Assembly (NCBI GenBank): GCA_029567505.1
Contig: JAKPXO010000456.1
Span: 1 to 54,656 of the forward strand
Source: Acidobacteriota bacterium
Lineage (GTDB): Bacteria > Acidobacteriota > Thermoanaerobaculia > UBA5066
Reading direction: 5' to 3'
DNA: 54,656 nucleotides
Positions 11,490 to 52,096 of this stretch are shown here, in pieces. The notes beneath the pieces were generated by a model. That model saw nothing but the letters and a program-made list of their open reading frames with translations, had not been told where the DNA came from and made no database searches. Position 1 is the stretch's first letter, and each line of letters starts with the position of its first letter. The position numbers and the translations under genes are program-made.

Positions 11490-11495
11490 AGTCTA
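11490..11495 (-). promoter_or_regulatory. -10 box (TAGACT) of the SRPBCC/CDF unit, leaderless type
   Basis: TAGACT on the minus strand, 7 bp before the ATG at 11482. It overlaps the very end of the upstream EamA gene, so the unit appears to be transcribed independently. Confidence 0.5.
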
Positions 11496-12389: not shown

Positions 12390-12397
12390 GGCCGGCG

Positions 12398-12403
12398 ATT
12401 ATC
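12398..12403 (-). promoter_or_regulatory. -10 box (GATAAT) of the minus-strand EamA gene, leaderless type
   Basis: GATAAT on the minus strand, 8 bp before the GTG at 12389, with no Shine-Dalgarno. Confidence 0.45.
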
Positions 12404-12433
12404 CGCGAGGGGCGCCCCGCGGCGCGCCGGTGC

Positions 12434-12439
12434 GATACT
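12434..12439 (+). promoter_or_regulatory. -10-like box (GATACT) of the plus-strand EamA gene
   Basis: GATACT lies 9 bp before the TTG at 12449. The spacing is one or two bases longer than for the other leaderless candidates, so support is weaker. Confidence 0.3.
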
Positions 12440-12448
12440 CCGCCTCCC

Positions 12449-34056: not shown

Positions 34057-37000
34057 ATGCTCCAAACGCTCCCCTGGCGCCGGCTTGCGCTGGCCGGCCT
34101 GTTCGTGGTTTTCCCGGCGGCCCGGGCACAGGAGCCGGGCTGGGAGGAGCTCGGACCGAGCTCGGTCGGCGGCAGGGTCTCCGCGCTGGCGGCGGACCCG
34201 CGCGACCCCCGGCATCTCGTCGTCGGGACCCCGGCGGGTGGCCTCTGGCGCTCCACCGACGGCGGGCAGGTCTGGCAGACGCTCGCGCCGTGGCTGGCGG
34301 CGACGCCCCTGAGCGCCGTCGCGATTTCCCCCGTCGACTCGAACGTCCTCCTTGCCGGGACCGGGGCACTCTCGGACGGGGGCTCGGTCTCCCCCGGGAT
34401 CGGGCTGATCCGGTCCACGGATGGCGGCACCTCATGGACCGTCGCCGGACCCATCGGCGCGGGTCTCTACGTCTCCGCACTCCTCGTCGACGACGCGGAT
34501 CCATCGCGGGTCCTCGTCGCCACCGACACCGGCGTGAAGCTCTCGACGGACGCGGGGACGACCTTCGCCGCGACCCTCGATGGGGATGCCGTGTCGATGC
34601 TGGTCCGTGACCCTCTCCGCGCCGGTTCGGTCTTCGCGTCGGGCCGGGGAGGCCTCTACCGGAGCGACGACCGCGGGAGCACGTGGGTGAGAACGGCCGG
34701 GTGGCCGCTCCGGGCCACCGACACGTTCGGGGTCGGGACGACGAGCGTGGCGGTGTCCGCGAGGACTCCGGGACTTCTCTACGCGACGATCCAGGTGCTG
34801 GGTGACCTCAACAGGACCGACCGGGCTCTCCTGCTGCGCTCTCGCGACGGAGGAACGACGTTCGAGGAGCTCGCGCCTCCTCCGTTCTGCACCTCCTGCG
34901 GATTCGCCCAGGCGATCGCGCTCGACCCGCTCGACGACGCGCGGATCCTCCTCGGCGGGGACGGGCTTTCCGTTTCGACGGACGCCGGAGCGACCTGGAG
35001 GGCCGTCACCGGGGACGCGGCCGGCGTGCACCGGATCCTGGTCCTCGCGGATCGGGTCCTCGTGGCGGGGACCTCGGGAGTCGCAACGCTCGACGCGGCC
35101 TGGTCGACGGCGACGTCCTCGAGCTACGGGCTCGCCGTCACCTCGATCACGAGCCTGGACGCCTCCCGCGAGTCGCCCCCTCGCCTCCTCGCGGGAACGG
35201 CCGACTCGGGCACCCTTCTCGCGGTGCCGGCCGACCCCGTCCCGGTCTGGCACGTCATCCACGGGAGGCGGGAAGCGGCGGGCCCGGCGCGCTTCGACCC
35301 CTTCGACGCCGACCGCCTCTACGTCTCCTCGACCGGGGGGCGCCTCTTCCGCTCCGACGACCGCGGAGTGAGCTTCCGCCCGATCGTCCAGGGGCTCGAC
35401 CTCGATCAGCCCGCCCCGACCGAGGCCCCCCTCGAGCCCAGCCCACTCGATCCCGGGACTCTCTTCACGGGCCGAATGCAGCTCTTCCGGTCGACCGATT
35501 CCGGCGACTCCTGGACCGGCTTCCGCCCCCCGGGGTCGCCGGAGATCACCCGGATCGCGGTGTCGCCGGTCCGCTCCGGCCGGGTCTACTTCGCCGTCGC
35601 CCTCGGAGCGAAGCTCTTCAAGGCCGACGGCATCGGCACGGACCTGATCACGATCAGCGACGACCCCGGACTCGCCGTCACGTCGCTCCACCTCGATCCG
35701 GACGCGGAGAACGTCCTGTACGCGACGCTCGCCGACCCTTCGTCCCAGACGGGGCGGGTCTTCAAGTCCTACGACTTCGGCCAAGCGTGGGAGGAGATCA
35801 GCCTTCCGGGCCTCGCGACGCCGAGCAGCATCGTCAAGGACGCGTTCGGAGCGCTCTACATCGGAACGTCTGACGGAGTCTGGCGCTCTCCCAACGACGG
35901 ATCCAGCTGGTCGGCGTTCCGCAACGGGCTCGCCGGCGCGGGGGTGAGCGCGCTCCGGGTGGCGGACGACACCCTCTTCGCCGGGACTTTCGGGCGCGGC
36001 GTCTTCCGGATTCCGCTGGAGGAGCTCGTGACGATCGACACGATCCCCTCCGGACTCGAGATCCTCGTCGACGGACAGGTCGTCACGACTCCCTACTACG
36101 CTCGCTGGGCCCGCGGGTCCGTCCATCGGATCGAGCCCGTCCTTTTCGAGAACGAGGACACCCGCCAGGTCTTCGTCTCCTGGAGCGACGGCGGAGCATC
36201 GAGCCACCCGGTCACGACGACGACCGGACGCGAGTGGTTCACGGCTGCGATCCGCCGATCGCACCGCCTCCGCACCGAGGTCACCCCGACCTCGGGCGGC
36301 TCGCTCGCTCTCGACCCGCCCTCGGCGGACGGCTTCTACGTCGAGAGGAGCTTCGCGACGCTCGTCGCGATCCCCTCTCCCGTGCACCGGTTCGCGGGCT
36401 ACTCCGGCGACGTGAGCGGGTCCGACGGCATCCTCGGCTTCGCGGTCATGGACCGCCCGCGCTCGGTGAAGGCACACTTCGAGCCGCTCCATCTCGTCGT
36501 GAAGAGCGAGCCCTCCGGCCTCGCCCTCGGCGTCGACGGGGCCTCGTCCACGACTCCCGCAACGTTCCAATGGGCGTCGGGCTCCGTCCACGTCGTCTCG
36601 GCCCCCGAGCTCGTCGATCGGGGAGAAGGCTCCCGGCCGCTCGCCTTCGATGGCTGGAGCGACCTCGGCGACCGGGAGCACAGCGTGGTGGTGCACCGCG
36701 ACACCTTCGTCACCGACCTCACGGCGCGGTACATCCCGACGATCACGACGCTCGCCGTGCCGGCGTCGGGCTCCGCCTTCCTGAAGACCACGGGCCAGGA
36801 CGACGCCCCGAGGCTCGCGGCGCTTCTCCTCACGCCCGCCACGGGCGCTCCGGCGCCGGAGGCGCTTCAGGTCCTGAGCGGCCGCCTCGACGGAACCGTC
36901 GTGACGGAGCTGGCGACCGTCTCCTCGGAGCCGCGGCTCCTGAGCCACGCCTACGTCGAGGAAGGGGGAACGGCGGGCCGGACCCGGATCACGGCGTATA

Positions 37001-38184
37001 ACCCCGGCACGGCGGAGGCCTCCGTGGACCTCGTCCTGCGCGGGCTCGACGGCACGCCCATCCAGACGACGTCCGCCGCGTTCCGCGTGCCGGCGGGGGG
37101 CTTCACGGTCCAGTTCCTGTCCGACCTCCTCGCATTCCCGGAGCAGGTCCGCGGACTCCTGACGCTCGTCTCGAACCGCCCGCTGGCCACGTCCGTCCAC
37201 TCCATGAGGGCGAACCTCAGGCCGTCGAGCTTTCTCGACCCCGTCCTCGTCGCCCCCTTCAACGACGCCGACAGCGGGGTCCCGTCGAGCGCCGCAGTAC
37301 AGAGCATTCTTCTGACCCCCGACACGGTCCACCGCCTCGCAGTCTCGAACACCGGCCTGGCGGGCCTTTCGGGGACCCTCGCGTTCCGGGACGACACCGG
37401 CGCTCCGCTCCGGGTCGAGCTCGAGTCCGGCCACGCCACGACCGCAGGCTACGAGCTGCCGCCCGGGGGAACCGCGGTCTTCCGGTTCCGCGTACCGGAC
37501 GCGCGCCCTTCCGACGCCGAGGTTCGGACGGCCCAGGTCCGGGTCCTGCCGCGCAACGACCAGGCGGTCGGAGCTCTCGCTCCGCGCCCCAGCGCCAGCC
37601 AGCCGGCCCCGATGGTCCAGCTCGTCGAGGAGAGGACCGTGGGAAACACCTCCGGGCAACCCGTCGTCCTGCCCCGCACCGTTCCACCCTCCCGGGCGGT
37701 GACGCGCTTCCTCGTTCCGGTGGAGCTCGCCCTCAGGGACAGCGGGGTCATACTGACGAACCGCCTGGGACTGGCCGTCACGGCGACCCTGACGCTGCGG
37801 GACTCGGGCGGAGGGACGGTCGGGTCCGCAGACGTCCCGGTCCCGGCCGGAGGGCAGGTGGCCATATCGTGCCGCTCCCTCTTCCCTTCGGCGGGCGACC
37901 TTCAGGGGTCCCTGGCCGGCACGGTCGCCGGCCCGAACGGTGCGACGCTCGACGTCGTCGGCTTCCTCCGCCGCGTGAACGACCGGGGCGAGGAGATCCT
38001 GGCGGGCTTCCCCGTCCTCGACGGAGCCGCCGGTACGAGGGACCTCGCCCCTGTCTTCCCGCTCGCCCTCGACGGCGACAGCTGGCGTTCCGAGTGGTCC
38101 CTCTGGAACGCGACTCCTGCCGATCTCGTTACGCGTCTCGTGTTCCAGAGGGACGGACGAACGGCGTACTTCCCGTTCGAATGA
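34057..38184 (+). CDS. Large secreted Asp-box (BNR/sortilin-like) beta-propeller protein
   Basis: 1375 residues with a signal peptide cleaved near residue 24 (AARAQ). Residues ~25-655 contain at least ten Asp-box motifs (S-x-D-x-G-x-x-W/F, for example RSTDGGQVW, RSDDRGSTW, STDAGATW, KSYDFGQAW) arranged as one or two beta-propellers, as in VPS10/sortilin-like and sialidase-like folds. No sialidase catalytic Arg triad is evident. Residues ~660-900 hold PEGA-like and other beta repeats (IPSGLEILVDGQ; SEPSGLALGVDG). The C-terminal ~450 residues are Ig-like beta domains shared with the secreted protein at 46245. It may bind or cap surface polysaccharide. The gene is flanked by the two GH51-like genes, and its stop overlaps the next start (ATGA). 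Confidence 0.82.
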   Translation: MLQTLPWRRLALAGLFVVFPAARAQEPGWEELGPSSVGGRVSALAADPRDPRHLVVGTPAGGLWRSTDGGQVWQTLAPWLAATPLSAVAISPVDSNVLLAGTGALSDGGSVSPGIGLIRSTDGGTSWTVAGPIGAGLYVSALLVDDADPSRVLVATDTGVKLSTDAGTTFAATLDGDAVSMLVRDPLRAGSVFASGRGGLYRSDDRGSTWVRTAGWPLRATDTFGVGTTSVAVSARTPGLLYATIQVLGDLNRTDRALLLRSRDGGTTFEELAPPPFCTSCGFAQAIALDPLDDARILLGGDGLSVSTDAGATWRAVTGDAAGVHRILVLADRVLVAGTSGVATLDAAWSTATSSSYGLAVTSITSLDASRESPPRLLAGTADSGTLLAVPADPVPVWHVIHGRREAAGPARFDPFDADRLYVSSTGGRLFRSDDRGVSFRPIVQGLDLDQPAPTEAPLEPSPLDPGTLFTGRMQLFRSTDSGDSWTGFRPPGSPEITRIAVSPVRSGRVYFAVALGAKLFKADGIGTDLITISDDPGLAVTSLHLDPDAENVLYATLADPSSQTGRVFKSYDFGQAWEEISLPGLATPSSIVKDAFGALYIGTSDGVWRSPNDGSSWSAFRNGLAGAGVSALRVADDTLFAGTFGRGVFRIPLEELVTIDTIPSGLEILVDGQVVTTPYYARWARGSVHRIEPVLFENEDTRQVFVSWSDGGASSHPVTTTTGREWFTAAIRRSHRLRTEVTPTSGGSLALDPPSADGFYVERSFATLVAIPSPVHRFAGYSGDVSGSDGILGFAVMDRPRSVKAHFEPLHLVVKSEPSGLALGVDGASSTTPATFQWASGSVHVVSAPELVDRGEGSRPLAFDGWSDLGDREHSVVVHRDTFVTDLTARYIPTITTLAVPASGSAFLKTTGQDDAPRLAALLLTPATGAPAPEALQVLSGRLDGTVVTELATVSSEPRLLSHAYVEEGGTAGRTRITAYNPGTAEASVDLVLRGLDGTPIQTTSAAFRVPAGGFTVQFLSDLLAFPEQVRGLLTLVSNRPLATSVHSMRANLRPSSFLDPVLVAPFNDADSGVPSSAAVQSILLTPDTVHRLAVSNTGLAGLSGTLAFRDDTGAPLRVELESGHATTAGYELPPGGTAVFRFRVPDARPSDAEVRTAQVRVLPRNDQAVGALAPRPSASQPAPMVQLVEERTVGNTSGQPVVLPRTVPPSRAVTRFLVPVELALRDSGVILTNRLGLAVTATLTLRDSGGGTVGSADVPVPAGGQVAISCRSLFPSAGDLQGSLAGTVAGPNGATLDVVGFLRRVNDRGEEILAGFPVLDGAAGTRDLAPVFPLALDGDSWRSEWSLWNATPADLVTRLVFQRDGRTAYFPFE

Positions 38185-39767
38185 GACGAATGAGAAAGAC
38201 TCCCCCCCTCTCCCACAGGTCATGGATTTCGCGGATCGCCCGCGCAGCGAACGCCGCGGCGCTCCTCGTGGTCTTCGCCGCCGCGCGGCCTGCGCGCGCG
38301 CAGCCGATGCCCGTCGCCACGAGCTCGATCCACGTCGACTTCCAGAAGGTGAAGCGGGTGATCCCGGCTCTTCTCTTCGGGCAGAACCTCCAGACGATCG
38401 AGCGGGGCGAAGGGATCGTCAAGCCGGATGGCTCCTTCGACCGCGAGATCGTGAGCCTCCTCTCCGAGGCCCGGGTCACGACGCTCCGCTTCCCGGGGGG
38501 GACGGCCGCGGACTTCTTCCACTGGTGGCAAGCGCTCGGCCCGCACTCGCGGCGCCCGAAGCTCTCGAGCGGCTACCTCGGGGAGTTCTACTCCCCGGTC
38601 GTGGGGCCCGACGAGTTCATCAAGCTCGCCACGGCGCTGAAGGCGGTCCCCTTCGTCACCGCGAACACCGGCACCGGCAGCGCCGAGGAGGCGGCCGCCT
38701 TCGCGCGGTTCTTCGAGTCGCGCGGGTTCCCCGTCGTCTACTGGGAGGTCGGAAACGAGGTCTATTTCGAGGGCCTGTCGGAGAGCGGCCAGATCGGTCT
38801 CCCGCCCGACGTCTACGCCCGCCGCGTCATCGAATACGCGGCCGCCATCCGCAAGCAGGCCCCGTACGCGAAGATCTACTCGGCGGCGGTCATCGGCCCC
38901 GAGGAGCAGGACAGCTTCTGGAACAGCGTCGTCCTCGGGCTCGCGGGACCCTACGTGGACGGCATCAGCGTCCACAATGCCTACTTCCCCCTCTACGGCT
39001 ACAGGGCCGATGGGACGATCCCTCCGGACGACGAGCTCTTCACGTCGATGCTGGGAGCGACGAAGGCCGTCGAGAGGTCCATGACCGTGCTCGAAGGGCA
39101 GCTCCGAAGGCTCGGGAAGCTCATCCCGATCTTCGTCACCGAGTACGACGGGATCTTCTACCCGGACGAGGCCATCGAGGACCCCGTCCGGACCCACCAG
39201 AGGAACCCGACGCTCGCCAGCGCCCTCTTCAATGCGAGCGTCCTCCACGTCATGGCGCGAAGCGAGCGCGTGTACGGGGCGCACCACATGTCGCTCGCCG
39301 GGACTCACTTCGGCAGCCTCATCGGGACCGCCGGAGCCGCCCGGTTCCGGAACCCGCAGTTCTACGTGCACCGCGAGTACGCGCGCGAGTCCGGGAACCT
39401 GATGACCGAAGTCCGGCTCGACCCGAAGGACGCGCTGTTCGACTCGAAGCCGGTGAAGCTCCTCTCGGGGCAGATGGACGTCCCGATGCTCGACGCCCTG
39501 GCCACCCGGGATCCCGGCGAGAGCCACTTCGCTCTGTTCGTCGTGAACCGGAGCCTCTCGACGGCCGTGGACGCAACGATCGAGATGAACCTCCCGTCCG
39601 GCGTGACCGGCACCGTCTCGGTCCTGAACGGTCCCGGACCCGGCGCTCGGAACAGCGCCGAGAGACCGGACGCCGTGGCGCTCACCACGACGCCCTTCGG
39701 CGCCGCGGGTGCCTTCTCCTACAGGTTCCCCCCGCACTCGCTCACGATCTTCCGTTTCGCGCGGTGA
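38181..39767 (+). CDS. Secreted glycoside hydrolase, GH51/GH39-like (clan GH-A)
   Basis: 528 residues from ATG at 38181, overlapping the Asp-box stop; a second ATG lies at 38190. A twin-Arg-free signal peptide (AALLVVFAAARPARA) ends near residue 40 and there is no lipobox. The barrel (~48-430) parallels the 32297 protein: LLFGQNLQTIERGEG, LRFPGGTAADFFHW, ANTGTGSAEEAAAFARFF, acid/base E193 in YWEVGNEVYF and nucleophile candidate E321 in FVTEYDGIF. A C-terminal beta-sandwich contains ESHFALFVVNRSL, similar to the paralogue's LTALLVNRSL. It likely acts on the locus polysaccharide outside the cytoplasm. Confidence 0.82.
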   Translation: MRRMRKTPPLSHRSWISRIARAANAAALLVVFAAARPARAQPMPVATSSIHVDFQKVKRVIPALLFGQNLQTIERGEGIVKPDGSFDREIVSLLSEARVTTLRFPGGTAADFFHWWQALGPHSRRPKLSSGYLGEFYSPVVGPDEFIKLATALKAVPFVTANTGTGSAEEAAAFARFFESRGFPVVYWEVGNEVYFEGLSESGQIGLPPDVYARRVIEYAAAIRKQAPYAKIYSAAVIGPEEQDSFWNSVVLGLAGPYVDGISVHNAYFPLYGYRADGTIPPDDELFTSMLGATKAVERSMTVLEGQLRRLGKLIPIFVTEYDGIFYPDEAIEDPVRTHQRNPTLASALFNASVLHVMARSERVYGAHHMSLAGTHFGSLIGTAGAARFRNPQFYVHREYARESGNLMTEVRLDPKDALFDSKPVKLLSGQMDVPMLDALATRDPGESHFALFVVNRSLSTAVDATIEMNLPSGVTGTVSVLNGPGPGARNSAERPDAVALTTTPFGAAGAFSYRFPPHSLTIFRFAR

Positions 39768-39790
39768 GCCTCCGCCCGGCCGCCGGGTGC

Positions 39791-39796
39791 TATGGT
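39791..39796 (+). promoter_or_regulatory. Candidate -10 box (TATGGT) upstream of the GT4 gene
   Basis: TATGGT in the only gap (46 bp) between 38181 and 42545, giving a start about 11 nt before the ATG at 39814. A GGGGGG run in that short leader may act as a ribosome-binding site. An internal promoter of the locus is plausible. Confidence 0.35.
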
Positions 39797-39813
39797 ACTG
39801 TGGGGGGTTCCGT

Positions 39814-41031
39814 ATGACCCTACAGAACGATGACGCGCCGAGGCGCAGGCGGCTCGCGGTGTACTACCCGTGGCTCTACCTGACGAGCGGCGCCGAGCGG
39901 ACGATCCTGGAGATCGCGAAGCGGAGCCGATACCGGATCACGATCTTCACGAACGAGTACCAGCCCGACGCGACCTTCCCCGAGCTGGGGCAGATGGACG
40001 TCCGCCTCCTCTCCCGCGTTCCCGTCGAGAGGTCGCTCCGGTCGGTGGCGAGCGCCGCGACGCGGCTCCTCTCCCAGGAGCTCGACCTCTCGGAGTTCGA
40101 CGGTCTCCTCGTCGTCTGCGAGGGGCTCGGGGACCTCGTCGCCCTTCGTCAGCGCCGGATCCCCGTTTTCTGCCTCTGCCTGACTCCCCTCCGTATCGCC
40201 TTCGACCCCGTGTATCGGGCGAACTACCTCGCGTCCCGAAATGCCCTTCACCGCGTCGTCGTCCGAGCCGGGACCTTCCTCTACCGCGGCGTCGACCGGA
40301 TCGCCTGGCGGCGCTACCGTCGGGTCTTCGCGATCAGCGAGGAGGTGCGGACGCGCATCCTGGCGGGGCGCCTGGCGCCCCCCGAGCGGATGCGGACGCT
40401 CCACCCCGGCGTGGAGCTTTCCGCCTTCACGCCGTCGCCTCCGGCCGAGAGGGTCTTCTTCGTCCCGGGGCGGATCATGTGGACGAAGAACCTCGAGCTC
40501 GCGATCCAGGCGTTCCAGCTCTTCAAGGAGACGGCGCCGGAGCCCTCGACCTGGAAGCTCGTCATCGCCGGGATCGTCGACAGGAAGAGCCGGCCGTACC
40601 TCGAACGTCTCCGGTCCCTCGCTGGCGGGGACCCCTCGGTGGAGTTCCGCATCCACCCGTCGGACGAAGAGATGCGTGCCCTGTACGCCGCCTGCTTCGC
40701 GACGCTCTTCACCGCGTTCAACGAGGACTGGGGGCTCGTCATCATCGAGGCCATGGCCTCGGGCAAGCCGGCGGTCGCGGTGAACCGGGGCGGCCCGAAG
40801 GAGATCGTCCGGCACGGGCACGACGGGCTCCTCTCCGAGGCCGACCCGGTAGCGTTCGCGTCGGCGATGGCGCGGCTCGCCGGCGAGAACGGTCTCCACG
40901 AGCGCCTCGCGATGAACGCCCCTTCGAGCGCAGCCCGCTTCGGCTGGGCCCCGTTCGTCTCCGAGCTCGACGACGAGCTCGAGCGTACGCTCGGTGCCCT
41001 CGACGCCGCCGGCGCTCGGGAGGCCGCTTGA
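39814..41031 (+). CDS. Glycosyltransferase family 4
   Basis: 405 residues. The N-half has RLAVYYPWLYLTSGAERTILEIAKRS, similar to mannosyl/rhamnosyl GT4 enzymes, and LVVCEGLGDLVALRQRRIP. The C-half has FVPGRIMWTKNLELAIQAFQLF (donor loop) and the EX7E motif in FNEDWGLVIIEAMASGKPAV, followed by NRGGPKEIV, where Gly/Glu contact the donor phosphate. It starts a second cluster of overlapping genes with the chain-length protein (TTGA overlap). A cytoplasmic enzyme extending the repeat unit; sugar unknown. Confidence 0.92.
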   Translation: MTLQNDDAPRRRRLAVYYPWLYLTSGAERTILEIAKRSRYRITIFTNEYQPDATFPELGQMDVRLLSRVPVERSLRSVASAATRLLSQELDLSEFDGLLVVCEGLGDLVALRQRRIPVFCLCLTPLRIAFDPVYRANYLASRNALHRVVVRAGTFLYRGVDRIAWRRYRRVFAISEEVRTRILAGRLAPPERMRTLHPGVELSAFTPSPPAERVFFVPGRIMWTKNLELAIQAFQLFKETAPEPSTWKLVIAGIVDRKSRPYLERLRSLAGGDPSVEFRIHPSDEEMRALYAACFATLFTAFNEDWGLVIIEAMASGKPAVAVNRGGPKEIVRHGHDGLLSEADPVAFASAMARLAGENGLHERLAMNAPSSAARFGWAPFVSELDDELERTLGALDAAGAREAA

Positions 41032-42545
41032 GCGACTCGATCCACCCCGTCGGGAGCGCCACACCGGCGCCACCTGCCGCGGCGCAGCCCGGCGACCTCG
41101 CGGAGGCATTGCTGCGCCTCGCGAGGTCGGTGACGTCCCGGCGGCGTCTCTTCGCGGCCGTCGCTCTCGGGACCTTCCTCGCCATCCAGGTGTTCGCCTT
41201 CGTCTGGCCCGCGACCTACGAGGCGCGGGCGGCCGTGATGATCCAGAAGAGCCGGTACACCCCCCGGCTCGATTCCCCGGCCCGGGCCGAGTCTCCCGTC
41301 CTCGTCGCCGAGATCACCGAGGAGGAGGTCAATTCCGAGATCGCCGTGCTGACGAGCCGCCGAGTCCTCTCGGCTACGGTCGAGGCGACGGGCCTCGCGA
41401 AGGCCCGGCCTTCCTGGTTCTGGCGGCTCCTCTTCGCGCCGCTTCGGGCCTACGAGCGGGCCCACGCCGCGTACCACGAGGTCACACCTCCGAACGACGT
41501 GGACCGCGCGATCCGGGCGCTCTCCGGCTCGCTCGGCGTCGAGCGGCTCAAGGAGTCCCGCATCCTCGTCGTCACCTACGAGGCGGGGGACCCCGGTGTG
41601 GCAGAGGCGGTCCTGGCGGAGCTCCTCCGGAACTACGTCGCCCACCACGTGGAGGTCCACGGCACTCAACGGGTCGTCCCCTTCTTCTCCTCTCAGACGG
41701 AGACCCTCGCAAGGGAGCTGGCCCGGCACGAGGACGCCCTCCAGGCGATCAAGAAGAGGGTGCGCGCGGTCGACATGCCCACCGAGCGGGAGGTCCAGCT
41801 GAAGCTCGACGCGGGCCTTCGCGAGGAGAACGAGATGCTCGGCCGGCGCCTCGTCGAGCTCGACGGGAAGATCGCCGCGTACGACAGGCTCCTCGAGCGC
41901 GCGGCGCGTGGGGAGACGGACTCCGCCGCATCCGCGGCGAGCCAGCCCGCGCTGGACGAGTTCAAGGTCCAGGCCCTCCGCCTGCAGCTCGAGCAGATCC
42001 GGGTCGAGGGCCGGTACCAGGACGACGCCCCGCCCGTCCTCGAGAACCGGAAGAAGCTCGAGGCTGCCCAGAAGGCCCTCGCCGAGGAGCGGCAGAACGT
42101 CTCGAAGCACGGTCCGACCGTCGTCGCGCTCCACGAGGAACGGGAGCGCGCCGTGGCCGACCGGGCCGGGATCGTGGAGCGACGCCAGGCGCTGGAGAAG
42201 CAGCTCGGCGCCTCGCGGGCCCGCCTCGTCGAGCTCGACGAGGGGAGCGTCGCCGCCTCGCGGGCGCAGCGCCTCATTCGCTCAGCCGAGGACCGCTACA
42301 TGATGGTCCTCTCTCAGCAGGAACGGGCTCTCATCGACTCGGCGCTCGACTCCGGGAAGTTCACGAACGTCTCCGTCGTCCAGGAAGCGGCCGCCTCGGC
42401 GAAACCGGTCCGCCCCAAGAAGCTGATCGTCCTCCTCGCTTCGGTCTTCGGTGGCCTCCTCCTCGGCTTCGCGGCCTGTCTCGTCCAGGAGGTGCGGACG
42501 ACGGGCCTGGCGCCGCTCCTCGCCGCGGCGGTGACCGAGCCGTGA
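41028..42545 (+). CDS. Wzz/GumC-type polysaccharide chain-length/co-polymerase protein
   Basis: 505 residues from TTG at 41028 overlapping the preceding TGA. Two membrane segments (~41-60, LFAAVALGTFLAIQVFAFVW, and ~465-490, KLIVLLASVFGGLLLGFAAC) bracket a ~400-residue periplasmic domain. The first part (TYEARAAVMIQKSRYTPRL) is Wzz-like and the rest is coiled coil (LARELARHEDALQAIKKRV; ENRKKLEAAQKALAEERQ), as in GumC/ExoP. No Walker motifs follow, so there is no fused BY-kinase. It would pair with the polymerase and the Wza-like exporter to set chain length and guide export. The stop overlaps the acyltransferase start. Confidence 0.9.
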   Translation: MSDSIHPVGSATPAPPAAAQPGDLAEALLRLARSVTSRRRLFAAVALGTFLAIQVFAFVWPATYEARAAVMIQKSRYTPRLDSPARAESPVLVAEITEEEVNSEIAVLTSRRVLSATVEATGLAKARPSWFWRLLFAPLRAYERAHAAYHEVTPPNDVDRAIRALSGSLGVERLKESRILVVTYEAGDPGVAEAVLAELLRNYVAHHVEVHGTQRVVPFFSSQTETLARELARHEDALQAIKKRVRAVDMPTEREVQLKLDAGLREENEMLGRRLVELDGKIAAYDRLLERAARGETDSAASAASQPALDEFKVQALRLQLEQIRVEGRYQDDAPPVLENRKKLEAAQKALAEERQNVSKHGPTVVALHEERERAVADRAGIVERRQALEKQLGASRARLVELDEGSVAASRAQRLIRSAEDRYMMVLSQQERALIDSALDSGKFTNVSVVQEAAASAKPVRPKKLIVLLASVFGGLLLGFAACLVQEVRTTGLAPLLAAAVTEP

Positions 42546-43177
42546 GCGGAGAGACGCACCCTTCTCCCGATGCCCTCGCGTCGTCCCTCGGGCACGCCGG
42601 CCGCGTCCGGGTGCAGGACTCCCTGGGGGACCGTCTCAAGCAGCTCGCGCGCAACGCCCTTCTCTTCGGGGCGAACCGCGTCATCGGCCCCCTCCCGGGG
42701 CACGCGCTGCGCCTCGCGTACTACCGGACCGCGCTCGGCTGGAAGATCGGCGAGCGGAGCAGCGTCCATCACGGGCTGAAGATCTTCGGAGGCCGGGGAC
42801 GCGTGACGATCGGCAAGCGGAGCACCTTCCAGATGGACTGCCTCATCGTCGGGGCCGGGATGAACGACCTGACGATCGGCGACGACGTCGCGATCGCCTA
42901 CCGCGTGAACCTCGTCATGGGGAGCCACGACGTCTTCTCGCCGACGTTCGACGGGATCACGGGGCCGATCACGCTGGAGGACCACGTCTTCGTCGGTACG
43001 GGCTCCACGATCCTCCTGGGCGTGACGCTCGGCGAGGGGACCGTCGTGACCGCCGGGTCGGTCGTCACGAAGAGCTCGCCCCCCTATTCGATCCTCCGTG
43101 GCAACCCGGCCCAGGTCGTGGCGAAGCGTCCGCGCGACCTGAGCTACTCGGCAGAGCACTTCTGGACCTTCCACTGA
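42542..43177 (+). CDS. Left-handed beta-helix (hexapeptide) acyltransferase
   Basis: 211 residues from GTG at 42542 (GTGA overlap). Hexapeptide repeats run from about residue 75 (VTIGKRSTF; LTIGDDVAI; ITLEDHVFVGTGSTILLGVTLGEGTVVTAGSVVTKS). The conserved His of WbbJ/LacA-type O-acetyltransferases is in NLVMGSHDVFSPTF. The C-terminus PPYSILRGNPAQVVAKR is standard. These enzymes normally transfer acetyl from acetyl-CoA to a sugar hydroxyl. Here the gene is 16 bp upstream of a dehydrogenase/adenylation/carrier-protein trio, so an acyl-carrier-protein donor is a possible alternative. That is inference. Confidence 0.88.
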   Translation: MSGETHPSPDALASSLGHAGRVRVQDSLGDRLKQLARNALLFGANRVIGPLPGHALRLAYYRTALGWKIGERSSVHHGLKIFGGRGRVTIGKRSTFQMDCLIVGAGMNDLTIGDDVAIAYRVNLVMGSHDVFSPTFDGITGPITLEDHVFVGTGSTILLGVTLGEGTVVTAGSVVTKSSPPYSILRGNPAQVVAKRPRDLSYSAEHFWTFH

Positions 43178-43193: not shown

Positions 43194-44339
43194 ATGGATT
43201 TCGACTTCACGAGCGAACAGGAAGAGCTGCGGGAGGCCGTAACGGCCTTCGCAAGGGCGGAGCTCGGCGCGAACCTCCTCGAAGAGGAGAAGGCCGGGCA
43301 CTTCTCGCGGACGAAATGGGAGGCCGCCGCCCGCTTCGGGCTCCAGGGACTCCCGATGCCGGAGGCCTTCGGCGGGACCGACCGCGACCTCCTGACGACC
43401 GTCTGCGCGATGGAGGGGCTGGGCTACGGCTGCCCCGACAACGGGCTGATCTTCTCGCTGAACGCCCACATCTGGAGCGCCGAGATGCCGATCCTCAAGT
43501 TCGGCACCCCGGAGCAGAAGGACCGCTACCTCCCGCGACTCGTCGGCGGCGACTGGATCGCCGTCCACGCGATGACCGAGGAGGGCTCGGGGTCCGACGC
43601 CTTCAACGTCCGGACGACCGCGACCCGGCGCGGCGACCGCTTCGTCCTCAACGGCTCGAAGCTCTTCATCACGAACGCCCCGGTGGCGGACGTCGTCGTC
43701 GTCTTCGCGTCGGAAGACCTCGAGAGCGGGCCGGACGGCATCTCCGCGTTCCTCGTCGAGAAGGGAACACCCGGCTTCTCGGTCAGCCGGCCCTTCGAGA
43801 AGATGGGCCTCAGGACCTCCCCCATGGGACAGATCTTCCTCGAGGACTGCGAGGTCCCGGCGGAGCGCCGCCTCGGCGGCGAAGGGGCCGGCGTGGCCCT
43901 CTTCAACAGCTCGATGGACTACGAGCGGGCCTGCATCCTGGCCGCGAACATCGGGACGCTCGAACGCCAGCTCGAGACTTGCGTCGAGCGGGCGCGGACC
44001 TGGCAGCGGTTCGGCAAGGCGATCGGCAAGTTCCAGTCGGTGTCGAACAAGATCGCCGACATGAAGGTGCGGCTCGAGACGGCCCGGCTCCTCCTCTACA
44101 AGACGGCGTGGCTGAAGGGCCGGGGGAAGCGGGCGAGCATGGAGTCGGCGATGGCGAAGCTCTACGTGAGCGAGTGCTTCGTCCAGTCGAGCCTCGACGC
44201 CATCGAGCTCTTCGGCGCCTACGGCTACATGGCCGAGTACGAGATCGAGAGGGACCTCCGCGACGCCGTCGGCGGGACGATCTACTCGGGGACGTCCGCG
44301 ATCCAGAGGATGATCGTCGCCCGCCACCTGGGGCTCTGA
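43194..44339 (+). CDS. Acyl-CoA-dehydrogenase-fold flavoenzyme, probably prolyl-carrier-protein oxidase type
   Basis: 381 residues with full ACAD architecture: N-terminal helices, middle beta domain (AMTEEGSGSDAFNVRTTA; LNGSKLFITNAPVADVVVVF) and C-terminal helical FAD domain (RQFGK-like WQRFGKAIGKFQSVSNKIADM). The base used by short/medium-chain enzymes (YEGTS Glu) is replaced: the motif reads YSGTSAIQ with S365. An alternative base E244 is present in SSMDYERACILAANIG, at the isovaleryl-CoA-dehydrogenase position. This combination, together with NAPVAD and GLGYGCPDNGL, resembles PltE/PigA/RedW/CloN3, which oxidise L-prolyl-S-carrier to pyrrolyl-2-carboxyl-S-carrier. The following adenylation enzyme and ACP fit that reaction. 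A different acyl substrate remains possible. Confidence 0.82.
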   Translation: MDFDFTSEQEELREAVTAFARAELGANLLEEEKAGHFSRTKWEAAARFGLQGLPMPEAFGGTDRDLLTTVCAMEGLGYGCPDNGLIFSLNAHIWSAEMPILKFGTPEQKDRYLPRLVGGDWIAVHAMTEEGSGSDAFNVRTTATRRGDRFVLNGSKLFITNAPVADVVVVFASEDLESGPDGISAFLVEKGTPGFSVSRPFEKMGLRTSPMGQIFLEDCEVPAERRLGGEGAGVALFNSSMDYERACILAANIGTLERQLETCVERARTWQRFGKAIGKFQSVSNKIADMKVRLETARLLLYKTAWLKGRGKRASMESAMAKLYVSECFVQSSLDAIELFGAYGYMAEYEIERDLRDAVGGTIYSGTSAIQRMIVARHLGL

Positions 44340-44341
44340 GC

Positions 44342-45964
44342 GTGCCGGCCTCGCTCGTCTCCCTCCTCCTCCGGTCCGCCGCGGACCACCCCGGGCGGCC
44401 CGCCGTCGGGCTTCCCGGAGAGGAGCCCCTGACCTACTCCGGGCTCGAACGGGCGAGCGCGGGCGTCGCGGCCTGGCTCGCCGAGCGCGGCGTTCGTCGC
44501 GGGGACCGCGTCGGCCTCCTCCTCCCGAAGTCCGTCGAGGCCGTCGTCGGCGTGTGGGGGGCCCTCCGCACCGGGGCGGCTTACGTCCCGATCGACCGGG
44601 CCTCCCCGCCGCAGCGCGCCGCGCTCATCGCGTCGAACTGCGGGATGTCGGCGCTGCTGGCCTCGACCGAGGCTTCCGCCGCGGTCGAGGCGATCCGCGC
44701 GGCGCGGCCGGGGCTCCCCGTCCTCCTGCTGCACGGCGCGGGCGCGACCGGCGTCCCTCCCTCTCCGGTGGGGCCGCTCCCCTCCCCCAACGTCCGCGAC
44801 CTCGCCTACGTCCTCTACACGTCCGGGTCGACCGGCGTGCCGAAGGGCGTGATGGTTTCGCACGGCGCGGCCCTGTCGTTCGTCGAGTGGGCCGCCGCCC
44901 GCTTCGAGCTGCGTCCCGCGGACGTCCTCTCGAGCCATGCGCCTCTCCACTTCGACCTCTCCACCTTCGACCTCTTCGGGGCCACCCTCGCGGGAGCGCG
45001 CCTCGTCGTCCTCGACGAGGAGACCGTTCGCTTCCCGATGGCCTCCGCGGAGGCCCTCGAGACCGAACGGATTTCCGTCTGGTACTCGGTCCCGGGGGCG
45101 CTGCGGCGGATGGTCCGGACGGCTCGCCTCTCCGACCGGAAGCTCCCGGCCCTGCGGACGGTCCTCTTCGCCGGCGAGGTCTACCCCGCCGACGAGCTGC
45201 GGGCGCTGCAGCTCGCCCTCCCGCCGGACACCGCCCTCTACAACCTCTACGGGCCGACGGAGACGAACGTCTGCACCTACTGGCGGGTCCCCCCGGCGGG
45301 CACCTGGACGTCGCCGGCGGTCCCGATCGGCATCGACTGCGAGAACTGCGAGGGCGTCGTCGTCGACCCGGAGCTGAGGCCGGTGCCCGAAGGGGAGGCC
45401 GGGGAGCTCCTCGTCCGCGGCGGGACGTTGATGGAAGGGTACTGGGGAGACGCCGAGGCGACGGCGAGGTCGTTCGTCGCCGACTTCCTCCATCCCCACC
45501 TCTCCGACCGCCTCTACCGCACCGGCGACATCGTCCGCCGGCAGCCCGACGGGACCTACGCCTTCCACGGTCGCGTCGACCACATGGTGAAGGTGCGCGG
45601 CTACCGGGTAGAGCTCGGCGAGGTCGAATCGGCCCTCCTGCGCGCCCCGGGAGTGGCGGAGGCCGCGGTCGTCGCGGTCGAGCGGGACGGCCCGGGAGGC
45701 CGCGAAACGGAGCTCGTCGCTTTCGTCTCGGGCGAAGGTCCGGACCCGGGTCGCGAACGGGACCTCCGGCGCCACCTCGCGGCCCACGTCCTCAAGTACA
45801 TGGTCCCGGCGGAGATCCGATTCCTCAGGGAGTTCCCCGCCACGTCGAGCGGGAAGGTCGACCGCCAGACCCTCAAGGCCCTCGCCAGCTGCCCGGAGAG
45901 CGCAAGCAGCGCGGCGCCGGCGAGCCAGACCCCGTCGGGCAGAAGCCCGGGAGAGACGACATGA
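44342..45964 (+). CDS. Stand-alone amino-acid adenylation enzyme, probable L-prolyl-AMP ligase type
   Basis: 540 residues from GTG at 44342, 2 bp after the dehydrogenase stop. NRPS-like A-domain cores are complete: A3 YTSGSTGVPKGVMVSHGA, A5 NLYGPTETNVCTYW, A7 YRTGD, A8 GRVDHMVKVRGYRVELGEVE and A10 SSGKVDR with K505. Hand alignment to GrsA gives pocket residues D205, L206, F209, Y248, L275, A277, L302, V310, C311 and K505, i.e. D-L-F-Y-L-A-L-V-C-K. From memory, prolyl-AMP ligases of pyrrole pathways (PltF, PigI, RedM, CloN4) carry D-L-L-Y-L-A-L-V-C-K. It would activate proline (or a close analogue) with ATP and load the ACP encoded next. The stop overlaps the ACP start. Confidence 0.85.
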   Translation: MPASLVSLLLRSAADHPGRPAVGLPGEEPLTYSGLERASAGVAAWLAERGVRRGDRVGLLLPKSVEAVVGVWGALRTGAAYVPIDRASPPQRAALIASNCGMSALLASTEASAAVEAIRAARPGLPVLLLHGAGATGVPPSPVGPLPSPNVRDLAYVLYTSGSTGVPKGVMVSHGAALSFVEWAAARFELRPADVLSSHAPLHFDLSTFDLFGATLAGARLVVLDEETVRFPMASAEALETERISVWYSVPGALRRMVRTARLSDRKLPALRTVLFAGEVYPADELRALQLALPPDTALYNLYGPTETNVCTYWRVPPAGTWTSPAVPIGIDCENCEGVVVDPELRPVPEGEAGELLVRGGTLMEGYWGDAEATARSFVADFLHPHLSDRLYRTGDIVRRQPDGTYAFHGRVDHMVKVRGYRVELGEVESALLRAPGVAEAAVVAVERDGPGGRETELVAFVSGEGPDPGRERDLRRHLAAHVLKYMVPAEIRFLREFPATSSGKVDRQTLKALASCPESASSAAPASQTPSGRSPGETT

Positions 45965-46227
45965 ACGTACTCGATTCCCTCAGGCGGTTCCTCGCGAACG
46001 AGCTCCGCGTCGCCGATGCGGCGACGATGGACCCGGACCTCGCCCTGGTTCAGAGCGGAGCGATCGACTCGATCGAGCTGATGCAGGTCGTCGCCTTCCT
46101 CGAGAAGGAGTTCGGCATCGAGGTCGACGACACGGAGATCCTGCCGAAGAACCTCCGGAGCCTCTCGCGGATCGTGGCGTTCGTCGAGGCCAAGCGCGCG
46201 GGAGCGAGCCCGGGCTCCGCGACCTGA
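45961..46227 (+). CDS. Stand-alone acyl/peptidyl carrier protein
   Basis: 88 residues from ATG at 45961, overlapping the adenylation gene (ATGA). It has the four-helix carrier fold with the phosphopantetheine Ser S37 in SGAIDSIELMQVVAFLEKEFGIEV, an acidic helix II and a helix III segment ILPKNLRSLSRIVAFVE. No phosphopantetheinyl transferase gene is in the window, so activation would rely on one elsewhere. Its immediate linkage to an adenylation enzyme and an ACAD makes it the substrate tether for the predicted oxidation. The final acceptor of the acyl group is unknown but should be a polysaccharide or lipid-linked sugar, given the locus. Confidence 0.92.
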   Translation: MNVLDSLRRFLANELRVADAATMDPDLALVQSGAIDSIELMQVVAFLEKEFGIEVDDTEILPKNLRSLSRIVAFVEAKRAGASPGSAT

Positions 46228-48485: not shown

Positions 48486-49775
48486 GTGAACGAAGCTCGC
48501 GAGACCGGCGGGGCCGCCGAGCGCTCGAGCCCGGGTTCCTCGTGGACACGCTTGCGAGACCGGATGCGGGAAGCCTCCGCTCTGCATCCTCGCCTGCGAC
48601 GCCCCCGGGCCTACCTGAACTGGCTGAGGGCCAACTACGAGCTCCTGACCCGTGCCGGAGAGATCCGCGCCCGGCCCCTGAAGCTGACGTTCGACCCGAC
48701 GAACTACTGTCAGCTTCGCTGTCCGCTCTGCCCCACGGGGGCCCGCGTTCAGGACCGCGATCGTGGCCGGGCGCAGAGGCACGTCTTCGAGCACCTGATG
48801 GACGAGGTGGGGGACTACGTCTTCCTGATCGACTTCTTCAACTGGGGCGAGCCGCTGCTGAACGAATATGCCGAGGAGCTCGTCTCGATGGCGAGCCGAC
48901 GCGGGATCCTGACGTTCCTCAGCTCGAACCTGAGCATCCCGATGACCGACGCGCGCGTGGGGCGGCTCGTCGACAGCGGCCTGAGCCAGCTCATCGTCTC
49001 CCTCGACGGCGCGACCGCCGAGACGTACGGCACGTATCGGCGGCAGGGACGGTTCGACCTCGTGATCGAGAACATGAAGCGGGTGCTCGCGGCACGCCGG
49101 GAACGCGGCGTCACGCACCCGAGAGTGAACTGGCAGTTCCTCGTCTTCCGGTTCAACGAGCACGAGATCGGCACCGTCCGCCACATGGCGGAGGACCTGG
49201 GCGTCGACAGCGTCACCTTCCGGGCGCCTTTCCTCGACGAGGGGCGCGTGCCGCTCTCGGAGAAGGACAGGTCGGCGGTCGCGGGATGGGCGCCCACGCT
49301 CGTCGAGTTCAACCGCTACGACGAGTGCAGCCCGGCGCACACCGTCGTCCCGCCACGTCCGCGCTGCGGGTGGCACTACATGTCCTCCGCGATCAACTGG
49401 GACGGGAGCGTGGCCCCCTGCTGCACGGTGTTCGAGAAACGGGACGACTTCGGCCAGCTGTCGGGAACGGGCGGCGACTACATGGCCGTCGTCAACAACG
49501 ACCGGTACCGAGCCGTACGAAACAGCTTCGCGGGTCGGCCTTCGAAGGCCGAAGGCCTCGTCTGCCTCGAGTGCCCCACGCCCTTCCTGATGGACTATCA
49601 CTCGCACCTGAATCGACAGATCCTGCTCTATTCGTCGGCGAGCCTGCTGGACGCCCTTCGCCATCCCGTTCGCCGCTTCCGGGCGCGGCGGACTCGGGTG
49701 GAGGTGCTTCATCCCGGCGAACCCGTCGCCGGCCCTCTCGACGCCGACGTCGACGCCGCGACGCTCCGGACCTAG
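48486..49775 (+). CDS. Radical SAM/SPASM-domain protein
   Basis: 429 residues from GTG at 48486; the frame is open further upstream but would cross the promoter region. After a ~65-residue basic leader comes the radical SAM core with the [4Fe-4S] ligands C75, C79 and C82 (NYCQLRCPLCP), FFNWGEPLLN (GGEP-like) and IVSLDGATAETYGTYR. The C-terminal region has SPASM-type cysteines in RCGWHYMSSAINWDG, APCCTVF and LVCLECP. Radical SAM/SPASM proteins modify peptides or, in polysaccharide loci, are common but mostly uncharacterised. No precursor peptide gene was seen nearby. It is convergent with the export lipoprotein gene. Confidence 0.88.
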   Translation: MNEARETGGAAERSSPGSSWTRLRDRMREASALHPRLRRPRAYLNWLRANYELLTRAGEIRARPLKLTFDPTNYCQLRCPLCPTGARVQDRDRGRAQRHVFEHLMDEVGDYVFLIDFFNWGEPLLNEYAEELVSMASRRGILTFLSSNLSIPMTDARVGRLVDSGLSQLIVSLDGATAETYGTYRRQGRFDLVIENMKRVLAARRERGVTHPRVNWQFLVFRFNEHEIGTVRHMAEDLGVDSVTFRAPFLDEGRVPLSEKDRSAVAGWAPTLVEFNRYDECSPAHTVVPPRPRCGWHYMSSAINWDGSVAPCCTVFEKRDDFGQLSGTGGDYMAVVNNDRYRAVRNSFAGRPSKAEGLVCLECPTPFLMDYHSHLNRQILLYSSASLLDALRHPVRRFRARRTRVEVLHPGEPVAGPLDADVDAATLRT

Positions 49776-49896: not shown

Positions 49897-50631
49897 TCAG
49901 GGCGCCCACCCGCCGAGGATGTAGCTCAGGTTCAGAGGGATCGGGAGGAGCTGCTTGAAGTAGACGTCGACGAACTGGGCCAGATGAGCAACTCTCGTCT
50001 TCGGGACGAAGACGATGTCCGACGGGAGGAGAGCCACGTCGTTGCGGCTCGCTCCCCGCTCCAGGCCGCCCCGGAGGTCCAGCGTCATGAAGAGCGGCTC
50101 CGTCGTCCCCTGGTTCCTCAGGATGACGACGTTCTCGAGTCGGGCCGAGCTCTTGACCCCCCCGGCCTCCAGGATCGCCTGCAGCGCCGTGACGGTTCCC
50201 GGCGGGCGGATGACGCCGGGGGTGAGGACCTCGCCGCCGACGTAGATCCGACGTCCCGCGAACTCCTTCACGACGACGGCGACCTCCTGGTCGCGGAGCG
50301 TCCGTGCGTACCGCTCGGAGAGGACGTCGCGCAGGCCCGCCGGCGTCTGCCCCTCCGCCAGCACCTCTCCCGCGATCGGGAGCGAGATCCGGCCGTCGGG
50401 TCGGATCGAGACGGTCTCGTTCAGCTCCGGCGTGTAGAAGTGCTTGATCTCGAGGACGTCCCCGGCCTGGAGACGGTACTCGGGCGGCGGGGCCGCCGGC
50501 CCGGCCGCGGCCGGGCGGGCCGAGGCGACGGAGTCGGCCTGCCGGGCGGTGGCTCCGGCCGACGTGCAGCCGAGGGACCCGGTCCCGAGGACCGCGGCGG
50601 CGAGGAGGAGGGCGAAGGTCTCTGCTCTCAT
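49897..50631 (-). CDS. Wza-type polysaccharide export lipoprotein
   Basis: 244 residues with a lipobox SLGC (C22). The Poly_export domain (~50-130) has YRLQAGDVLEIKHFYTPELNETVSI and PDGRISLPIAGEVLAEGQTP. A SLBB domain (~130-215) has RIYVGGEVLTPGVIRPPGTVTALQAILEAGG and DIVFVPKTRVAHL. It is shorter than E. coli Wza (about 380) and has a single SLBB domain and only a short C-terminal segment (FKQLLPIPLNLSYILGG). It forms the outer-membrane or periplasmic exit for the polymer. It is cotranscribed downstream of the sugar-transferase gene (19-bp gap), opposite to the main locus. Confidence 0.92.
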   Translation of the reverse strand: MRAETFALLLAAAVLGTGSLGCTSAGATARQADSVASARPAAAGPAAPPPEYRLQAGDVLEIKHFYTPELNETVSIRPDGRISLPIAGEVLAEGQTPAGLRDVLSERYARTLRDQEVAVVVKEFAGRRIYVGGEVLTPGVIRPPGTVTALQAILEAGGVKSSARLENVVILRNQGTTEPLFMTLDLRGGLERGASRNDVALLPSDIVFVPKTRVAHLAQFVDVYFKQLLPIPLNLSYILGGWAP

Positions 50632-50650: not shown

Positions 50651-52096
50651 TCAGTTCGCGCCGGTGCCGCGCAGGACGGCGGGCAGCGTCTTCAGGATGA
50701 TCTCGAGGTCGAGCCCGAGCGACCAGTTGTCGATGTACTCGAGGTCGAGGTCCATCCACTCGTCGAAGCCGATCTCGTGCCGGCCGTTGACCTGCCAGAT
50801 GCACGTCAGACCCGGCTTCACGCTGAAGCGTCTCCTCTGGGTCCGCTTCTCGAACCTCAGGAAGTCGCGGACGGGAAGCGGGCGGGGCCCCACGAGGCTC
50901 ATGTCGCCCTTGAGGACGTTCCAGAACTGCGGCAGCTCGTCCAGGCTCAGCTTCCTCAGCACCCGCCCGAGCCGCGTGACGCGCGGGTCGTTCTTCATCT
51001 TGAAGGCCGCGCCGGCCACCTCGTTGCTCGCCTCCAGCTCCTTCATCCTGGCCTCGGCCTCCGGGACCATCGTCCGGAACTTCACGATGCGGAACCGCTT
51101 CATCCCCTGTCCCACCCTCTCCTGGAAGAAGAGGACGCTCCCGCGGCTGTCGAGACGGATCAGGGCGGCGATGACGAGAAAGAGCGGGGAGAGGAGGACC
51201 AGGGCGGTGAAGGAGACGACGATGTCCAGCAACCGCTTGACGACGAGGATGTCCGAGGAGGACATCGGCGGCTGGAGGGTGATCATCGGCAGGTCGTCGA
51301 GGTGATCGACGGTCGCCTTGGAAAGCCTGAGCTCGAACAGGCTCGTCGGGATCCTCACCATGAGCCCGCGGTCCTCGGCCGCCGCGATGATCCGTGCGAT
51401 CGTCCTGTACTGGGACCGGACCGGAAGCGCGATGATGATCTCGTCGGCCGGAAGGCTCGCGAGGATCTCCTCCACCGCCTCCAGGGAACCCAGGTGCGTC
51501 TCCCCGTCACTGGTCGAGGGGCCCGTCGGCGGGATGTCGTCGATGTACCCGAGCAGGTGATAGCCGAGATCGGAGCGCTTCCGGATCTCGGCCCCGAGGA
51601 ACAGCGCGCGCGGCCCGCAGCCCACGATCACGAGGTGCCGGAGGTTGCGCCCCCTCTGGCGAACCTTCCCCAGGAAGAACCGGACGGCCGTCCGAAGGAG
51701 GAGCGTTCCGGCCAGGGCGAGTCCGAAGAACAGGAGCAGGAACGATCGCGAGAGGAACGAGACCGAGAGGAAGAGCGAGAGGCTCCCGAAAACGAGGGTC
51801 CCGAGGGCGGTCGCGCGCGTGACGGCCCACGCCTCCGCGATCAGCCACCCGATCCGGTGAGAGCGGTAGAGCCCCTGCGTGCGGAAGCAGAGATGCCAGG
51901 CGAAGGCGAAGAGCAGCGCGTGTGCGACGTCGGAGAGCTGGACGCGGGTGGCGAGCAGGGAGCGGACGTCGCTCGCGCTCGTCACCCCAGTGGTGACGGC
52001 GTAGACGACGCCGAAGGCCAAGGCCACGACGCACAGGTCGGCGACGACGTAGCACGCGAGGAGCAGCCTCCGCTTGACGTTCAGCATCGCGTCCAT
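50651..52096 (-). CDS. Undecaprenyl-phosphate sugar-1-phosphate transferase (WbaP/WcaJ type)
   Basis: 481 residues. Four to five N-terminal membrane segments (~10-145) precede a CoA-binding/Rossmann-like domain (~150-270, LVIVGCGPRALFLGAEI...LGYIDDIPP). The C-terminal bacterial sugar transferase domain (~285-481) has KRLLDIVVSFTALVLLSPLF, the KFRTM segment, KLSLDELPQFWNVLKGDMSL with its catalytic Asp-Glu, VGPRP, and KPGLTCIWQVNGR. It starts repeat-unit synthesis by moving hexose-1-phosphate (usually glucose or galactose) from UDP-sugar to undecaprenyl phosphate. An ATG three codons in (MLNVKRR) is an alternative start. A ~525-bp gap lies upstream. Confidence 0.95.
   Translation of the reverse strand: MDAMLNVKRRLLLACYVVADLCVVALAFGVVYAVTTGVTSASDVRSLLATRVQLSDVAHALLFAFAWHLCFRTQGLYRSHRIGWLIAEAWAVTRATALGTLVFGSLSLFLSVSFLSRSFLLLFFGLALAGTLLLRTAVRFFLGKVRQRGRNLRHLVIVGCGPRALFLGAEIRKRSDLGYHLLGYIDDIPPTGPSTSDGETHLGSLEAVEEILASLPADEIIIALPVRSQYRTIARIIAAAEDRGLMVRIPTSLFELRLSKATVDHLDDLPMITLQPPMSSSDILVVKRLLDIVVSFTALVLLSPLFLVIAALIRLDSRGSVLFFQERVGQGMKRFRIVKFRTMVPEAEARMKELEASNEVAGAAFKMKNDPRVTRLGRVLRKLSLDELPQFWNVLKGDMSLVGPRPLPVRDFLRFEKRTQRRRFSVKPGLTCIWQVNGRHEIGFDEWMDLDLEYIDNWSLGLDLEIILKTLPAVLRGTGAN

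Follow-up and report, generated by a model that had tools for sequence, protein, structure and literature searches.

Why should genes for the oxidation of carrier-bound proline, a chemistry known from antibiotics, pigments and toxins, stand within a polysaccharide locus? The question is raised by three consecutive genes, encoding an acyl-CoA dehydrogenase (ACAD)-fold oxidase, an adenylation enzyme and a stand-alone acyl carrier protein (ACP), on contig JAKPXO010000456.1 of an Acidobacteriota bacterium (assembly GCA_029567505.1), of which a stretch of 54,656 nucleotides, called here the window, was analyzed. Our reading is that this trio is a cassette for thiotemplated proline oxidation in the service of the polysaccharide locus around it, its product being ester-linked to the glycan; we give it a probability of roughly 0.58. 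If true, it would point to an overlooked class of aromatic, possibly halogenated, redox-active surface glycans in uncultured Acidobacteriota and Chloroflexota, and genome-mining tools would misread such trios as small-molecule clusters. We found no report of a pyrrole-acylated polysaccharide in the open-access literature, of which our search had partial coverage.

The three genes, their order, the 2-bp gap between the oxidase and adenylation genes and the 4-bp overlap between the latter and the ACP gene had been described in an earlier note on this DNA, and proved exact to the base. The O-acyltransferase (hexapeptide type), Wzz-like and glycosyltransferase genes that it placed ahead of the trio on the forward strand were likewise identified by Pfam (hexapeptide, GNVR and Glycos_transf_1 models). 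The Wzz/GNVR gene overlaps the hexapeptide gene by 4 bp, 16 bp lie between the hexapeptide gene and the ACAD start, and 17 bp separate the ACP gene from that of a predicted exported protein. Given the short gaps and overlaps from the Wzz-like gene to the ACP gene, the trio probably shares a transcript with the Wzz-like and hexapeptide genes at least.

Which substrate would the adenylation enzyme activate? A profile built from twelve adenylation enzymes of ACAD neighbourhoods scored PltF at 553 bits, and the next single-domain chain at 405, that is, 148 lower; with the specificity region alone, PigI (88.5 bits) and PltF (87.8) came ahead of DltA (59.7). At the pocket positions, which we take to follow the GrsA numbering, the code is DLFYLALVC, compared with DLLYLALVC in PltF and DLFYIAWVC in PigI (both read from PDB alignments), and it is accompanied by Lys505 in an SGK motif. 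Of the 68 adenylation rows that were counted in neighbourhoods of the oxidase, 52 have this same DLFYLALVC, cyanobacterial loci included; a literature search for the code strings gave no match. The grouping of the enzyme with PltF and PigI, and not with DltA or acyl-CoA ligases, is well supported by these comparisons, and L-proline is very probably its substrate. Adenylation enzyme and carrier are both stand-alone proteins encoded side by side. The carrier, whose predicted phosphopantetheine serine lies in GAIDSIEL, matches solved peptidyl carrier proteins, PltL and PigG among them, and a phosphopantetheinyl transferase gene is present elsewhere in the genome.

Would the oxidase act on such a carrier-bound proline? 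Among solved structures, phmmer ranked AnaB (447.6 bits), Bmp3 (334) and PigA (313) above the best generic ACAD (276), and the first seven Foldseek matches of its AlphaFold model (mean predicted local distance difference test score, pLDDT, 80) were all AnaB, PigA and Bmp3 entries. Its identity with AnaB is about 50%. The predicted catalytic base is Glu244, in the sequence SMDYER of an SMxxER/EK segment, and the position of the C-terminal glutamate of short-chain acyl-CoA dehydrogenase-type enzymes is held by Ser365; generic ACADs, in contrast, retain the C-terminal glutamate and, one exception aside, have glycine or serine at the Glu244 position. The base glutamate is described as essential in AnaB and Bmp3 (PMC10849742). 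In the tree, the window oxidase groups with its homologue from locus L085 (99) and lies outside the main clade of fatty-acid-type ACADs; long branches make the deeper forks, the generic row gen_L011 (itself on a long branch) and the placement of Bmp3 and PigA unsure. The NCBIfam PigA equivalog scores 438 bits, under its cut-off of 500, so that the enzyme is a relative of PigA and not PigA itself. Fold model and sequence together make its membership of the prolyl-carrier oxidases (PigA, PltE, RedW, Bmp3 and AnaB) well supported, and ring oxidation on the carrier is very likely. A four-electron oxidation to pyrrole, as opposed to a two-electron one to pyrroline, appears likely; the nearest characterized enzyme is AnaB, but pyrrole is favoured by the halogenase genes that accompany related trios. 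Thus, the proline loading and oxidation proposed in the earlier note are well supported by likeness to PltF and PigI on one side and to AnaB, PigA and Bmp3 on the other, and profile, fold and active-site evidence places neither enzyme with its ordinary counterparts (DltA and acyl-ACP synthetases for the first, fatty-acid enzymes for the second). A second ACAD group, 44-49% identical to the window oxidase, was seen in the Acidobacteriota loci L069-L073 and L078; it keeps the glutamate, has the C-terminus VGTSEIQ, and lies in conserved clusters in the order ACAD, 400-aa protein, adenylation enzyme, ACP, 1400-aa adenylation-containing protein.

Does the trio belong to the polysaccharide locus? 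The Wzx/Wzy-dependent set around it is complete, with an initiating transferase, four glycosyltransferases, Wzx, Wzy, Wzz-like and Wza-like proteins, and intergenic gaps are short. Polyketide synthase (PKS) and halogenase genes, stated in the earlier note to be missing nearby, are indeed absent from the regions scanned with Pfam (15.5-18.6 and 19.5-54.6 kb, minus 20.4-23.9 kb), 1-15 kb having been gene-called only. In the genome as a whole, type I PKS pieces are on other contigs only, none near the trio, and are PUFA (polyunsaturated fatty acid)-synthase-like as judged from gene size and order only; a halogenase-family search gave weak matches, again only on other contigs, with a family that also matches in E. 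coli. A condensation domain was found nowhere in the genome, and attachment to a nonribosomal peptide synthetase (NRPS) was rejected on this ground.

The locus was found only in the genome of the window and in the Thermoanaerobaculales genome Prado016 (L085/L167, one 50,631-base contig); the hexapeptide enzyme, glycosidase-like gene and trio are not found together in three relatives of the same genus or in other close relatives. Identities between L085 and the window are 75% for the hexapeptide enzyme, 74% for the ACAD, 65% for the adenylation enzyme and 61% for the ACP. The order in Prado016 is Wza, ACP, Wzx, glycosyltransferase, BNR protein, glycosidase, glycosyltransferase, Wzz, hexapeptide enzyme, ACAD, adenylation enzyme, then, inverted, methyltransferase, Wzy and hydrolase, and finally a bacterial sugar-transferase-like gene. 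The hexapeptide, ACAD and adenylation genes are thus still adjacent, and the ACP gene lies 12 kb from its partners, between the Wza-like and Wzx genes, so that L085 is not a broken cassette devoid of ACP. That the carrier moved and yet stayed in the polysaccharide locus is the strongest single sign of functional membership.

Is the pairing of trio and polysaccharide genes more general? Scanning 84,980 genomes yielded 80 loci (81 with the window) from Acidobacteriota, Chloroflexota, Desulfobacterota, Planctomycetota, Cyanobacteriota, Eisenbacteria, Gemmatimonadota, Nitrospirota, Calditrichota and others; genes were called with a home-made caller, retrained for a few very GC-rich loci, and 20 random 20-kb stretches, from Acidobacteriota only, served as controls. 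The trio arrangement is more than chance: it recurs over many phyla, often in the same order, and none of the 20 controls holds an adenylation enzyme or ACP of the trio types. At least two glycan-assembly genes are present in 35 of the 81 loci (in 26 of these neither PKS nor NRPS was detected) versus 1 of 20 controls, and a same-strand O-acyltransferase gene lies at most five genes away in 39 of 81, whereas a single control has any such gene anywhere. In 20 loci the gene immediately 5' of the ACAD is of hexapeptide type, and in 11 the gene immediately 3' of the ACP is an Acyl_transf_3 gene. Recurrence beside acyltransferases in other polysaccharide loci, envisaged in the earlier note, is therefore supported by the survey as well as by the Prado016 synteny, and the pairing in several phyla suggests that these bacteria decorate surface sugars with pyrrole-type groups.

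In Anaerolineae it is an Acyl_transf_3 gene that comes after the ACP gene, at times together with a flavin halogenase, as would suit a pyrrole. Three Anaerolineae loci, L092 (12786-19056), L145 and L153, combine the trio with a flavin halogenase carrying WxWxIP, an Acyl_transf_3 protein, an epimerase and glycosyltransferases. In known pathways carrier-bound pyrroles are substrates of halogenases (PltA, cited in PMC10849742), and these three loci therefore probably make true pyrroles. L106, another Anaerolineae locus of glycan type, holds the trio, a WxWxIP flavin halogenase and Acyl_transf_3, and all four are candidates for halogenated-pyrrole glycans or glycolipids. The halogenase label was dropped for L096 and L098, whose enzymes are other flavoproteins without WxWxIP. 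Four further Anaerolineae loci (L086, L112, L116 and L164) have the trio, a flavin-dependent enzyme of the Trp_halogenase family and Acyl_transf_3, together with a protein that has a condensation domain, two carriers and a thioesterase; theirs would be a small-molecule pathway, as yet unassigned. Planctomycete and Acidobacteriota trios (L129 at 11392-14166, L135, L147, L151 and L155) are accompanied by a weak GDSL-like protein and by a conserved protein of 434 aa that has no match in Pfam. In Acidobacteriaceae (L097, L099, L108, L110, L111, L121 and L123) we observed a polysaccharide/NRPS hybrid locus, in the order NusG-like, Fis-type helix-turn-helix, Wza-like, Wzz-like, AAA, kinase-like and hexapeptide proteins, trio, sugar transferase and an adenylation-peptidyl carrier protein, followed, where scanned, by a P450-condensation-adenylation NRPS (L062, the same locus as L099).

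How might the product reach the glycan? In the pathway that we propose, the adenylation enzyme would activate L-proline and load it onto the phosphopantetheine of the ACP; the flavoenzyme, with Glu244 as base, would oxidize the loaded proline to pyrrole-2-carboxyl-S-ACP, or perhaps only as far as pyrroline; the group would be esterified onto a lipid-linked sugar repeat by an O-acyltransferase, for which the hexapeptide enzyme is the simplest candidate; and the decorated repeat would then be flipped, polymerized and exported by the Wzx/Wzy/Wzz/Wza set. Genomic context makes the transfer to polysaccharide somewhat probable, distinctly less so than the two preceding steps. Locus context, Prado016 synteny and the survey have strengthened, though not proven, the decoration part of the earlier note.

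Several observations weigh against this pathway. For none of these loci has the transfer of an acyl group to a sugar been demonstrated. The solved chains nearest to the hexapeptide enzyme are galactoside and maltose O-acetyltransferases, which use acetyl-CoA, so that it could be an ordinary O-acetyltransferase; for this reason its role as the transferase is at slightly under even odds. The WcaF-family model scores 74.5 bits on it, under its cut-off, and its structure model is of low confidence (pLDDT 65), only the fold being usable. The hexapeptide gene that precedes the ACAD in Acidobacteriaceae is of a different subfamily, and the adjacency is therefore not one conserved module. AnaB, the closest characterized oxidase, stops at pyrroline. 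The survey pattern itself required the glutamate motif, and with few controls and related loci the P-values overstate independence. NRPS context in 18 loci and PKS context in 7 mark the cassette as a portable part. The broader proposal, in which surface polysaccharides of bacteria widely carry covalently bound pyrrole-2-carboxyl (halogenated pyrrole in Anaerolineae), made by thiotemplated chemistry of the antibiotic type and passed directly from the ACP by hexapeptide or Acyl_transf_3 enzymes, is offered as tentative, the odds being somewhat against it.

These NRPS and PKS contexts bear directly on the alternative that survives best, in which the pyrroline- or pyrrole-carboxyl-S-ACP made by the trio would go into a free small molecule or a glycolipid, by a PKS acting in trans or by alpha/beta-hydrolase release, and the trio would be no more than a neighbour of the polysaccharide genes. 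Modular PKS pieces exist on other contigs, the locus does contain an alpha/beta-hydrolase, and in chalkophomycin biosynthesis such an enzyme frees the N-hydroxypyrrole acid from its carrier (PMC10849742). However, where a PKS occurs in the survey the trio adjoins it, and nothing alike is adjacent here, in a genome that has no condensation domain; the Prado016 ACP, when it moved, stayed inside the polysaccharide locus; and the hexapeptide enzyme and trio form one tight gene run. We consider this alternative unlikely. Less probable still is that the hexapeptide enzyme does ordinary O-acetylation with acetyl-CoA, as its solved relatives would have it, and that another enzyme of the locus (a glycosyltransferase partner, the alpha/beta-hydrolase as acyltransferase, or an unrecognized protein such as the predicted exported one) attaches the oxidized prolyl group. 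A free-standing enzyme, CouN7/CloN7, does move the pyrrole acid from carrier to sugar in aminocoumarins (PMC8748450, PMC11218499), and pairs of exosortase-A-associated-type alpha/beta-hydrolases directly precede the trio in L094 (8125-9974), L148, L154 and L159, but the hexapeptide gene is directly joined to the trio here and in L085, and a distant homologue adjoins the ACAD in L140. An Acyl_transf_3 gene is absent from the genome of the window. Activation and oxidation of another amino or fatty acid, by DltA-like D-alanine or fatty-acid chemistry, is very improbable, since the DltA (255 bits, cut-off 560) and acyl-CoA ligase models that also match the adenylation enzyme do so far below their cut-offs, and profile scores, the proline-type code closest to PltF and PigI, and the swapped catalytic glutamate of an oxidase in the prolyl-oxidase group led us to reject such a reading.

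Table 1. The trio and its neighbours in the window
Feature	Position	Strand	Evidence and remarks
Alpha/beta-hydrolase; second candidate for acyl transfer or release	23919-25037	+	Peptidase_S9/AXE1; syntenic homologue in L085
Wzy-type polymerase / O-antigen ligase	25118-26578	+	Wzy_C 64.6 bits
SAM (S-adenosylmethionine)-dependent methyltransferase	26575-27570	+	Methyltransf_23; 62% identical in L085
Wzx-type flippase	27573-29003	+	Polysacc_synt 47.6 bits
Three glycosyltransferases (GT families 4, 2 and 4)	GT4 29030-30205, GT2 30205-31197, GT4 31209-32300	+
Probable exported glycosidase-like protein	32297-33976	+	Arabinofuranosidase C-terminal domain PF06964
Large probable exported protein, Sortilin/BNR repeats	34057-38184	+	49% identical in L085
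Probable exported glycosidase-like protein	38268-39767	+	Alpha-L-arabinofuranosidase C-terminal domain PF06964, 33 bits; 71% identical in L085
Glycosyltransferase family 4	39859-41031	+	Glycos_transf_1 (scanned as 39709-41031)
Wzz/GNVR-type chain-length protein	41130-42545	+	GNVR domain 43.8 bits
Hexapeptide (left-handed beta helix) O-acyltransferase, WcaF-like; candidate pyrrolyl or acetyl transferase	42542-43177	+	Hexapep over cut-off
Predicted prolyl-carrier-protein oxidase, ACAD fold, 381 aa	43194-44339	+	Acyl-CoA_dh N/M/C far over Pfam cut-off
Predicted L-proline adenylation enzyme, 540 aa, GTG start	44342-45964	+	AMP-binding and AMP-binding_C far over Pfam cut-off
Stand-alone carrier protein (ACP), 88 aa	45961-46227	+	PP-binding 34.1 bits, Pfam cut-off 20.8
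Predicted exported protein, 418 aa	46245-47501	+	No Pfam/NCBIfam match; no homologue seen in the Prado016 locus
Radical SAM/SPASM protein, adjoining the polysaccharide locus	48564-49775	+
Wza-like export protein	49897-50631	-	Poly_export 73.5 bits
Initiating polyprenyl-phosphate sugar transferase	50651-52096	-	Bac_transf 231.5 bits; TIGR03025 over cut-off

Acyl-activating enzymes, namely AMP ligases (TIGR03098), also occur in exosortase-A/exopolysaccharide loci, and hydrolase pairs of exosortase-A type (TIGR03100/3101) are present in some of the trio loci; the adenylation enzyme of the window, at 241 bits, is well under the TIGR03098 cut-off of 592, and in the window an exosortase was not noted, no search having been aimed at exosortases. 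The PltF/PltE/PltL, PigI/PigA/PigG and Bmp systems share with the window the three enzyme types, the catalytic glutamate, a near-identical proline code and a short stand-alone carrier. Their products go into PKS, pigment or halogenated small-molecule pathways (pyoluteorin for Plt, prodigiosin for Pig, marine bromopyrroles for Bmp), whereas genes of these kinds do not adjoin the window trio, which lies in a Wzx/Wzy locus. The cyanobacterial prolyl-ACP oxidase pathway AnaC/AnaB/AnaD contains the closest characterized oxidase, and the cyanobacterial loci of the survey share the adenylation code; unlike the window locus, loci of this type continue into a PKS. As for clorobiocin and coumermycin, CloN4/CloN3/CloN5 produce a proline-derived, carrier-bound pyrrole carboxyl that a dedicated acyltransferase, CloN7/CouN7, moves from the carrier to a sugar hydroxyl, to which it is esterified (PMC11218499, PMC8748450). 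There, the sugar sits on an antibiotic. The candidate transferase of the window is of another family, and neither it nor the alpha/beta-hydrolase has a demonstrated homology to CouN7; equivalents of CloN1, CloN2 and CloN6 were not noted at the window locus. The transfer by CloN7/CouN7 nevertheless means that the logic of decorating a sugar with a pyrrole carboxyl has a precedent, on a small molecule.

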